This document shows positions 31,741-34,577 of a stretch of 64,000 nt of DNA, in pieces. The notes beneath the pieces are model-generated. The model searched no databases. It was not told the DNA's origin and saw only the letters and a program-made list of their open reading frames with translations. The DNA comes from Lachnospiraceae bacterium P6A3 (lineage in GTDB: Bacteria; Bacillota; Clostridia; Lachnospirales; Lachnospiraceae). Location of the stretch: NCBI GenBank assembly GCA_000702085.1, contig JNKP01000005.1:1-64000 (forward strand), written 5' to 3'. The first letter of the stretch is position 1. Each line of letters starts with the position of its first letter. The position numbers and the translations under genes are program-made.

Positions 31741-31887
31741 ATGAAAAGAATCAAAACTCTTGAAACCCGTAACCTTTGCGACAGCGCTAAGAAGGGCGGA
31801 TGCGGCGAGTGCCAGACTTCATGTCAGTCTGCATGCAAGACCAGCTGTGGTGTTGCTAACCAGAAGTGCGAAAACAAAGCTAAATAA
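31741..31887 (+). CDS. scfA: SCIFF (ranthipeptide) precursor peptide
   Basis: A 48-residue RiPP precursor of the SCIFF family (six cysteines in forty-five residues). It opens MKRIKTLETRNLC and contains GGCGECQTSCQSACKTSC, the family core. This copy has seven cysteines: 13, 21, 24, 28, 32, 36 and 43. In the characterised Clostridium thermocellum system a radical-SAM enzyme links a cysteine to a nearby threonine as a thioether. Here the residue after Cys36 is Gly37, where I recall Thr. The maturase gene follows after a terminator-like hairpin. The peptide is conserved across Clostridia but its role is unknown. Confidence 0.93.
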   Translation: MKRIKTLETRNLCDSAKKGGCGECQTSCQSACKTSCGVANQKCENKAK

Positions 31888-31914: not shown

Positions 31915-31954
31915 CCCCTTTTGCCGGCTCAGCTGACAAAAGGGGCTTTTATTT
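31915..31954 (+). terminator. Terminator or attenuator between scfA and scfB
   Basis: A perfect nine-base stem ccccttttg/caaaagggg with a 13-base loop is followed by cttttattt. It may end most transcripts after scfA, giving more precursor than maturase, with some read-through into scfB. Confidence 0.85.
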
Positions 31955-31990: not shown

Positions 31991-33373
31991 ATGGTTCATC
32001 AGTACAAACTTAACGGATTTAATATAGTTCTGGATTCATGTTCGGGTTCGGTTCACGATGTGGACGAAGTCGCTTACGATATGATTGAGATGTTTCCGGA
32101 TCATTCCAAAGAGGAAATCGTAGAGAAACTGTCCGCAAAATACGCCGGCCGTGATGATGTCACGAAAGAAGATCTTCTTGAGTGTTATGACGATATAGTT
32201 TCACTTAAGGAAGCAGGAAAGCTTTTTACCGAAGATACTTTTGAGGATATGGCGGGTACCTTTAAAGAGCGCAGCGGAAATGTGGTCAAGGCTCTTTGCC
32301 TTCATGTAGCTCATACCTGTAACCTTAATTGCTCATACTGTTTTGCCAGTCAGGGAAAGTATCACGGCGACAGAGCACTTATGAGCTTCGAAGTAGGTAA
32401 GAGAGCACTTGATTTTCTCGTAGAAAATTCCGGAAGCCGCACCAATCTTGAAGTGGACTTTTTCGGCGGCGAGCCTTTGATGAATTTCGATGTGGTTAAG
32501 CAGCTTGTTGCATATGCCAGAAGCATCGAAAAAGAAAAGAATAAGAATTTCCGTTTTACTCTTACCACTAACGGAGTTTTGATAGACGATGACGTTATCG
32601 AATTTGCCAATAAGGAGATGAGTAATGTAGTTCTGTCTCTTGACGGTCGTAAAGAAGTTCACGACAGGTTCAGAGTAGACTATGCGGGAAACGGAAGCTA
32701 TGAGACCATAATCCCCAAGTTCAAAAAGCTGGTTGATGCAAGAGGCGGCAAGGGCTATTACATTCGCGGAACCTTTACTCACTTTAATCCCGATTTTACC
32801 AAGGACGTATTTCATATGGCTGACCTTGGCTTTACCGAGCTTAGCATGGAGCCTGTTGTGGGAAAGCCGGGGGATGAAACCACACTTACTTCCGAAGATA
32901 TCGAGATCGTAAAAGAGCAGTATGAGATTCTTGCCAAGGACATGCTCAGACGTGAAAAGGAAGGCAAGCCCATCACTTTCTATCACTATATGCTTGATCT
33001 TACTGAGGGTCCCTGCATTTATAAGAGAATTTCAGGATGCGGATCGGGTACCGAATATATGGCGGTTACTCCCTGGGGAGATCTGTATCCCTGCCATCAG
33101 TTCGTCGGAGAAGAATCATATAAACTCGGTGACGTTTTTAACGGCGTAACCAACGATGCAATTCGTGAAGATTTCAGAAGCTGTAACGCATATGCGAGAA
33201 AAGAATGCAAGGACTGCTGGGCTAAACTGTATTGCTCCGGAGGATGCGCCGCAAACGCATTTCATGCTTCAGGTTCCATCAGAGGTATCTACGAACCCGG
33301 ATGCGAACTTTTCAAGAAGAGAATAGAATGCGCAATTATGATGCGCGTAAGTGAAAGAAGCGAAGAGGAGTAA
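31991..33373 (+). CDS. scfB: SCIFF radical SAM maturase
   Basis: A radical-SAM/SPASM enzyme of 460 residues that forms thioether crosslinks in the SCIFF precursor. An N-terminal RiPP-recognition-like region (residues 1-95) binds the leader. The radical-SAM cluster cysteines are C110, C114 and C117 in CNLNCSYC, followed by FFGGEPLMNF. The SPASM region near the C-terminus has GPCIYKRISGCGSG, YPCHQF and KECKDCWAKLYCSGGCA for two auxiliary Fe-S clusters. The gene lies 103 bases after scfA. It needs a Suf-type cluster supply, which is encoded in the same window. Confidence 0.95.
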   Translation: MVHQYKLNGFNIVLDSCSGSVHDVDEVAYDMIEMFPDHSKEEIVEKLSAKYAGRDDVTKEDLLECYDDIVSLKEAGKLFTEDTFEDMAGTFKERSGNVVKALCLHVAHTCNLNCSYCFASQGKYHGDRALMSFEVGKRALDFLVENSGSRTNLEVDFFGGEPLMNFDVVKQLVAYARSIEKEKNKNFRFTLTTNGVLIDDDVIEFANKEMSNVVLSLDGRKEVHDRFRVDYAGNGSYETIIPKFKKLVDARGGKGYYIRGTFTHFNPDFTKDVFHMADLGFTELSMEPVVGKPGDETTLTSEDIEIVKEQYEILAKDMLRREKEGKPITFYHYMLDLTEGPCIYKRISGCGSGTEYMAVTPWGDLYPCHQFVGEESYKLGDVFNGVTNDAIREDFRSCNAYARKECKDCWAKLYCSGGCAANAFHASGSIRGIYEPGCELFKKRIECAIMMRVSERSEEE

Positions 33374-33374
33374 T

Positions 33375-34577
33375 ATGGCAACCCCCATAGTTGATTTCCT
33401 TGAAAAATATAAAGAATCGGATACTTCAAGACTTCATATGCCGGGACATAAGGGAGCTGCCGATATACTTTCGAATATTCCCGAGTGGTTAAGAAACGTA
33501 TATGCATATGACATAACCGAAATGGCGGGAGCTGATGATCTGTATAATCCTTCCGGTATCATTAAAGCAAGTGAAGAAATTGCTTCCGGCATTTTCGGCA
33601 CAGACACATTCTATGTAACCGAAGGTTCGAGTCAGGCTATCAAGGCAATGATCTGGCTTGCCAAGAGACATTGGGAAATATCTTACATTCGGGATATGGG
33701 AGATGACGCAAGACTTCCTCAGCCTTATCTCTTTGTTCTCGGAAAGTTCCACAAGGCACTTCTGAATGCAGCCATGCTTACCGGTGTGAGCGTTGTTCAG
33801 ATCGACCTCGAGGGATTATCTGTAGAACAGATAATATCCAAGATTTATGATGGTTTTGTGGAAGAGAATAATCCCATCGGTGTCTATGCTACGTATCCGG
33901 ATTATTTCGGAAATGTATTTGACATGGGAAAGCTCAAAGCAGAACTTGCCGCAATGAACGTTCCTCTTTTGGTGGACGGTGCTCACAGCGCATATTTTAA
34001 GTTCCTGGATTATGATAAGTATGGTGATTACAGACATCCGATAGATTTATGCGCGGACATGGTATGTGCTTCCGCGCATAAAACTCTTCCCGCACTTACC
34101 GGCGCTGCATATCTTCATGTGGGTGAAGACTTATCGGATGTGCTTCCGGATGTTAAATATACTCTTGATATTTTCGGATCATCAAGTCCGTCATATCTGA
34201 TTATGGCAAGCCTTGATGCATTTAACGCTGAGGCGGGAAATTTCAGGAGTATACTCGGCCCCTTTTGTGATAAGACGGATAATCTGAAAAAAGAAATCTC
34301 CGACATGGGATTTAATGTATGTGATTCGGATCCGTTAAGGATTGTTGTAAGATCCGATAACAGGTTCACCGGAAATGATATTGCTTCATCACTTCGTGCA
34401 TTTAAATGTGAACCCGAATGCTCCGATGAAGATTATGTAATTATGATGCTGACGCCTTATAACAGCAATGAAGATCTGAATCGTATAAAGGATGCATTTC
34501 AGTTTCTTAAAAGTAACGGTGCTTTGGAATCCGAAAAAAACGAACCCGGTTATAACTGTATGAAGAACTTTATCTGA
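33375..34577 (+). CDS. Orn/Lys/Arg decarboxylase-family PLP enzyme
   Basis: A 400-residue fold-type I PLP enzyme of the Orn/Lys/Arg decarboxylase major domain. It begins with RLHMPGHKG, continues with VTEGSSQAIKAM and DGAHSAYF, and has the Schiff-base lysine in SAHKTLPALTGAAYLH. It lacks the C-terminal domain found in full CadA/SpeA enzymes and may be nearer to YaaO/YaaO-like proteins. The substrate is unknown. ATG 33375 is chosen for its gaagaggag ribosome site; it starts 1 base after the scfB stop. In B. subtilis the related yaaO gene lies in the yaaR-holB cluster, but here it is elsewhere. Confidence 0.85.
   Translation: MATPIVDFLEKYKESDTSRLHMPGHKGAADILSNIPEWLRNVYAYDITEMAGADDLYNPSGIIKASEEIASGIFGTDTFYVTEGSSQAIKAMIWLAKRHWEISYIRDMGDDARLPQPYLFVLGKFHKALLNAAMLTGVSVVQIDLEGLSVEQIISKIYDGFVEENNPIGVYATYPDYFGNVFDMGKLKAELAAMNVPLLVDGAHSAYFKFLDYDKYGDYRHPIDLCADMVCASAHKTLPALTGAAYLHVGEDLSDVLPDVKYTLDIFGSSSPSYLIMASLDAFNAEAGNFRSILGPFCDKTDNLKKEISDMGFNVCDSDPLRIVVRSDNRFTGNDIASSLRAFKCEPECSDEDYVIMMLTPYNSNEDLNRIKDAFQFLKSNGALESEKNEPGYNCMKNFI

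Follow-up and report, generated by a model that had tools for sequence, protein, structure and literature searches.

SCIFF systems, a kind common in clostridia, consist of a small cysteine-rich peptide and the enzyme that tailors it. The stretch of DNA analysed here, 64,000 nucleotides of Lachnospiraceae bacterium P6A3 referred to below as the window, carries a genuine system of this kind on its forward strand, and the system belongs to a subtype with Gly at position 37 of the precursor. The precursor gene scfA (31741..31887) encodes a peptide of 48 aa, MKRIKTLETRNLCDSAKKGGCGECQTSCQSACKTSCGVANQKCENKAK, which scored 81.6 bits with TIGR03973 (cut-off 50) and 83.5 bits with the Pfam SCIFF model PF13165 (cut-off 27). 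Because both scores exceed the cut-offs, scfA is no chance open reading frame. The peptide contains the six core cysteines expected of a SCIFF precursor of about 45 residues (Cys21, Cys24, Cys28, Cys32, Cys36 and Cys43) and a seventh, Cys13 (codon at 31777..31779), which the earlier note had described as additional to the six of the family and which the translation bears out. The reported thioether donor, Cys32 (31834..31836), is present, as is Thr34 (31840..31842), proposed here as the acceptor and named as such in a co-expression report on the homologue CteA; position 37 (31849..31851), the acceptor position of in vitro work, is occupied by Gly instead of Thr. This numbering follows CteA. 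Chain 5wgg_B, which corresponds to CteA residues 1–21 (MKHIKILNGSTLKDSLKKGGC; residue 13 is Lys and residue 21 is Cys), aligned with the window peptide without gaps, though the match is weak (E 0.19), so that the CteA numbering is safe and the Gly previously noticed at position 37 is indeed there. In CteA, residues 1–21 reportedly comprise the leader and the first three residues of the core (PMC8326336); Cys13 thus lies in the leader and probably does not form part of the product.

The maturase gene scfB (31991..33373, forward strand) encodes a protein of 460 aa with radical SAM and SPASM regions, which scored 760 bits with TIGR03974 (cut-off 425), matched PF04055 and PF13186, and aligned with 5wgg at an E value of 1.4e-161. 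All 11 cysteines that were checked, including those of the CX3CX2C motif and of the SPASM region, are in place (110, 114, 117, 342, 350, 368, 406, 409, 415, 419 and 438), and the same 11 are kept in 271 of 271 aligned ScfBs. The predicted structure (mean pLDDT 92) has the fold of CteB (5wgg_A; TM 0.92/0.96, the window structure being a model), with 50 percent identity in the structural alignment, which upholds the view that the maturase is intact. The CteA/CteB system of Clostridium thermocellum (SCIFF, thermocellin; 5wgg, 5why) thus shares with the window the numbering and the pairing of precursor with maturase. Among the differences, Lys13 in CteA is Cys13 in the window peptide, Thr37 in CteA (PMC8326336, PMC8172795) is Gly37, and the Asp found in CteB is Thr109 in the window ScfB (codon at 32315..32317), the residue that directly precedes the CX3CX2C motif. 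The idea that the genome has another SCIFF of the Thr37 type was considered and rejected: scfA is the sole SCIFF match there, and among four TIGR03974 matches the window ScfB is the only one above the cut-off.

Between scfA and scfB lies a hairpin (CCCCTTTTG...CAAAAGGGG) with a T-rich run after it (31915..31954, forward strand). The 103-nt intergenic stretch folds with a z-score of −2.68, and one of 200 shuffled sequences folded equally well; a consensus scan did not list the hairpin. With a custom script, like hairpins were found in the corresponding intergenic stretches of 127 of 139 Gly37, 146 of 166 Thr37 and 2 of 2 Ser37 loci, numbers that fell to 15, 25 and 1 after mononucleotide shuffling. 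Judged from its sequence, the hairpin is probably a partial terminator, and together with the T run it may yield more precursor than maturase. Downstream, a gene for an Orn/Lys/Arg-decarboxylase-like, PLP-dependent protein (33375..34577, forward strand; PF01276, 93 bits) adjoins scfB.

The peptide had been presented as a single odd case, a view that did not survive a survey of the family. SCIFF matches were obtained in all 31 genomes of the window's genus, in 322 of 391 genomes of a class sample and in 319 of 398 genomes of a phylum sample. Peptides were read from 280 clostridial loci, of which 30 come from the 31 genomes of the genus and 250 from the 321 class genomes outside it that gave a match; one of 284 HMM matches fell below 20 bits and was dropped, which left 283 peptides. 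In a set of 419 loci, two were left out since their peptides could not be parsed. Of the 283 peptides, 218 have Thr at position 37, 62 have Gly, two have Ser and one has Ala; within the window's genus the figures are 24 Thr and six Gly. Cys13 occurs in 34 peptides (26 of the 62 with Gly37 and eight of the 218 with Thr37). The six core cysteines hardly vary, position 32 being Cys in 281 peptides and Ser in two. Thr34 is present in all 283, but so are Q29-S30-A31 and K33-T34-S35 as a whole; Thr34 belongs to this invariant block, and its conservation does not in itself mark it as an acceptor. The phylum sample contributed 48 further peptides (28 from newly added loci among the best matches and 20 found by place, one of the 48 repeating a genome already counted), all with Thr34, and with Thr (44), Gly (3) or Ser (1) at position 37. 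A pattern scan of further loci returned Thr34 in 117 of 117 among the matches listed (at least 117), which carries no weight, since only peptides with Thr34 and Gly37 could match the pattern. Gly37 SCIFFs were also met outside the window's class, in Paenibacillus radicibacter and at one locus of the phylum sample whose peptide closely resembles it.

Two simple accounts of the unusual residues were rejected. Gly37 and Cys13 are no artefact of sequencing or gene calling, as they are common to five congeners (L026–L030) and a broad clade, and Cys13 is not required by Gly37, since 36 of the 62 Gly37 peptides are without it. On a tree of 226 ScfBs, where 23 rows carry Cys13, its appearance amounts to one change; where Cys13 occurs with Thr37, in eight peptides, no ScfB adjoins within the stretch examined.

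In the same tree a single branch (support 99) separates the 54 Gly37 rows from all others, and a mixture-model tree of 69 rows does so for 29 Gly37 rows, again with support 99. A third tree, with rows added, grouped the Gly37 row L337 with the two Ser37 rows, basal to the other Gly37 rows; as the trees carry no outgroup, the direction of change is not readable from them. Gly37 is the mark of a whole subtype, passed on by inheritance and also spread among bacteria, and no oddity of one peptide. The maturases themselves differ accordingly. ScfB residues 109, 113, 329, 333, 413 and 441, among others, strongly separate the Gly37 and Thr37 types in an alignment from which 27 of 298 unique ScfBs were omitted for lying outside 430–540 aa. 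At position 109, Gly37-type maturases (n = 135) have Thr in 120 cases, Ser in seven, Ala in four, Val in two and Ile and Asp in one each, whereas Thr37-type maturases (n = 134) have Asp in 131, Gly in two and Ala in one; the two Ser37-type maturases have Asp and Gly. In the phylum sample the residue before the cluster cysteine was read in 17 of the 48 loci (Thr37: Asp in 13, Glu in one; Gly37: Thr in two; Ser37: Asp in one). As judged from the alignment, the difference at position 109 is near complete yet rests on about one evolutionary change. L337 pairs a Gly37 peptide, which has a cysteine-rich C-terminus, with an Asp109 maturase and is an apparent intermediate between the types. For both reasons, the fact that ScfB 109 and residue 37 vary together was rejected as statistical proof of contact.

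The gene neighbourhood follows the same division. Among unique loci with at least 450 nt of sequence beyond scfB, a homologue of the decarboxylase-like gene starts no more than 600 nt after scfB in 60 of 105 Gly37 loci and in none of 70 Thr37 or two Ser37 loci. Its recurrence 3′ of scfB with the Gly37 type extends across families, and in the Ser37-type locus L418 a decarboxylase-like gene lies on the opposite side, before scfA. None of the 280 genomes showed more than one type among the loci read. Of the 168 genera read, only the window's contains both Gly37 and Thr37, and one other contains both Ala37 and Thr37; the sole Ala37 peptide (L201) has no ScfB alongside in the stretch examined, and its congener L258 has Thr37. 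By identity and in the mixture-model tree, the window ScfB is closer to its counterparts in other families (66–73 percent to Gly37-type ScfBs in four stretches) than to the Thr37-type maturases of its own genus (56–60 percent, matched in five of six stretches), and a tree that forces seven rows of the window's genus together was rejected (AU p 9.5e-60).

The position of the genes in the genus points to a replacement. The Thr37-type congeners L400 and L405 resemble the window in having one SCIFF with its ScfB and the core block QSACKTSC, but their peptides have Thr37 and are without Cys13, their ScfBs are about 56–57 percent identical to that of the window, and scfB is followed by SecDF instead of the decarboxylase-like gene. 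Their gene order is CNNM-scfA-scfB-SecDF-RecJ. In two other Thr37-type congeners, L401 and L403, the gene that precedes scfB-SecDF-RecJ is not CNNM, so that the old scfB site is not uniform across the genus. SecDF was searched for in six Gly37-type congeners, the genome of the window included, and the flank before it was visible in five, the stretch of L423 ending at SecDF and hence being uninformative on the old site. In five of these five, scfB is absent from that flank; CNNM stands directly beside SecDF in four of them, L422 giving no CNNM match, and the Gly37 pair sits away from the SecDF site. The simplest history is that the native Thr37 pair was lost and a foreign Gly37 pair was gained. 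The replacement suggests in turn that the Gly37 product does the same job as the one it displaced; this equivalence of function we infer from the exchange, which was itself seen in the genomes examined.

Glycine cannot receive a C-gamma thioether, and the earlier note had concluded that the cross-link must use another residue or a different chemistry. The exclusion of a gamma-thioether at Gly stands, but Thr34 is available and no new chemistry is forced by the sequence. The premise that Thr37 receives the thioether proved to be contested. In vitro work on Tte1186a and CteA placed the bond between Cys32 and Thr37, while in a later study, in which CteA and CteB were co-expressed, the C-gamma bond lay between Cys32 and Thr34, and the two reviews that report this leave the conflict open (PMC8326336, PMC8172795). 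Tte1186a, the SCIFF peptide of Caldanaerobacter subterraneus modified by Tte1186, has the donor Cys32 as does the window peptide, and its reported acceptor, Thr37, is Gly in the window (PMC8326336, PMC8172795). The earlier note had itself named an acceptor elsewhere, for example at Thr34, as a result that would overturn its reading; this case now draws on the co-expression report on the homologue CteA, and the alignment does not of itself move the acceptor.

The natural Gly37 peptides favour Thr34. Because the Gly37 pair substitutes for a Thr37 pair, Gly takes no gamma bond and Thr34 occurs in every peptide read, the best reading, to which we give a probability of roughly 0.6, is as follows. 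By analogy with CteB, the N-terminal domain of ScfB would bind the leader and the enzyme would join Cys32 to Thr34 by a single thioether at the gamma carbon, in both the Gly37 and the Thr37 types. Residue 37 would then be a small residue near the cross-link and not the acceptor. The subtype, comprising the Gly37 peptide, a maturase with mostly Thr109 and linked changes, and often a decarboxylase-like neighbour, would have arisen about once, spread between families and, in the window's genus, replaced the resident Thr37-type pair. Evidence against Thr34 comes from three loci (L191, L195 and L456) in which Cys32 has changed to Ser, residue 37 is also Ser, an additional cysteine stands near the C-terminus and Thr34 is nevertheless kept where the donor is lost. 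The joint change to Ser32 and Ser37 hints at a contact between positions 32 and 37, as a link from Cys32 to residue 37 would predict. The ScfBs of L191 and L195 retain all 11 cysteines checked, and the loss of the donor cysteine in this subtype is the most unusual observation of the survey. That ScfB 109 tracks residue 37 is weak counter-evidence, because it goes back to about one origin.

The joint change of positions 32 and 37 also enters a reading in which the family has two topologies, Thr37 being the true acceptor in the Thr37 type and the Gly37 subtype having shifted to another residue such as Thr34 or Ser35. The in vitro Cys32-Thr37 bonds of Tte1186a and CteA and the joint change of residue 37 and ScfB 109 would fit such a shift, but the later co-expression put the bond of CteA itself, a Thr37 peptide, on Thr34 (PMC8326336, PMC8172795), and we regard this reading as unlikely. 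The idea of a different chemistry keeps some life because the Gly37-type maturases differ beside a radical-SAM cluster cysteine. The Gly37 maturase might have been re-tuned to make another bond, for example from Cys32 to the alpha carbon of Gly37, which would be a sactipeptide inside the ranthipeptide family. Gly is a known alpha-thioether acceptor, as in the Cys31-Gly34 bond of streptosactin (PMC8172795), and position 109, which adjoins the cluster cysteine, is among the ScfB positions that separate the types. These differences, however, trace to about one branch and may only reflect shared descent, Asp109 accompanies Gly37 in L337, and the replacement of the Thr37 type in the window's genus suggests an equivalent product; re-tuning thus appears quite improbable. 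A wider version, in which SCIFF peptides are not uniform at all, would combine a Gly37 chemotype (ScfB Asp109 changed to Thr with linked changes, and another bond such as that to the alpha carbon of Gly37) with a third, Ser32/Ser37 chemotype that has lost the donor cysteine and gained an extra C-terminal one, the types being swapped by gene transfer; we offer it as a doubtful speculation.

It is very unlikely, finally, that the functional end product has no thioether and that the cysteine-rich stretch mainly binds a metal or cluster or forms disulfides, with residue 37 and Cys13 neutral. The near invariance of six core cysteines where one thioether is reported for CteA and Tte1186a, and the ability of CteA Cys21 to reach an auxiliary cluster of CteB (PMC8326336), would be in keeping with such a role, but the precursor comes with an ScfB whose cluster cysteines are all retained, and the published products carry thioethers (PMC8326336, PMC8172795). 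Freyrasin (PapA/PapB) and other ranthipeptides resemble the window system in having a radical SAM maturase that makes non-alpha thioethers; the window ScfB scored 285 bits with rSAM_PapB, below the cut-off of 340, and freyrasin has six Cys-Asp bonds (PMC8172795), whereas the sole Asp of the window peptide is residue 14, in the leader. In streptosactin (GggA/GggB), the alpha carbon of a Gly receives the Cys thioether (PMC8172795), but this is a sactipeptide from streptococci made by another maturase than that of the window.

All clear ScfA homologues have been said to appear functionally equivalent (PMC5300114), and in the literature searched, which was thin on subscription papers, no description of SCIFF subtypes by residue 37 was found. 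A family described there as equivalent throughout is now split into subtypes, each with its own kind of maturase and neighbours and with signs of gene transfer, and one subtype without the known donor cysteine has been revealed. Many natural peptides have only one of the two disputed threonines, and the product of a Gly37-type pair would bear directly on the conflict over the acceptor. The survey also turned up variation in the architecture of the precursors. At three loci (L163, L165 and L212) one open frame of 95–112 residues contains two tandem SCIFF units, each with Gly37, and in one family (f70; L216–L220) the SCIFFs are shortened, with a core that starts at CRSTC, a charged tail and the KTSCT motif retained.
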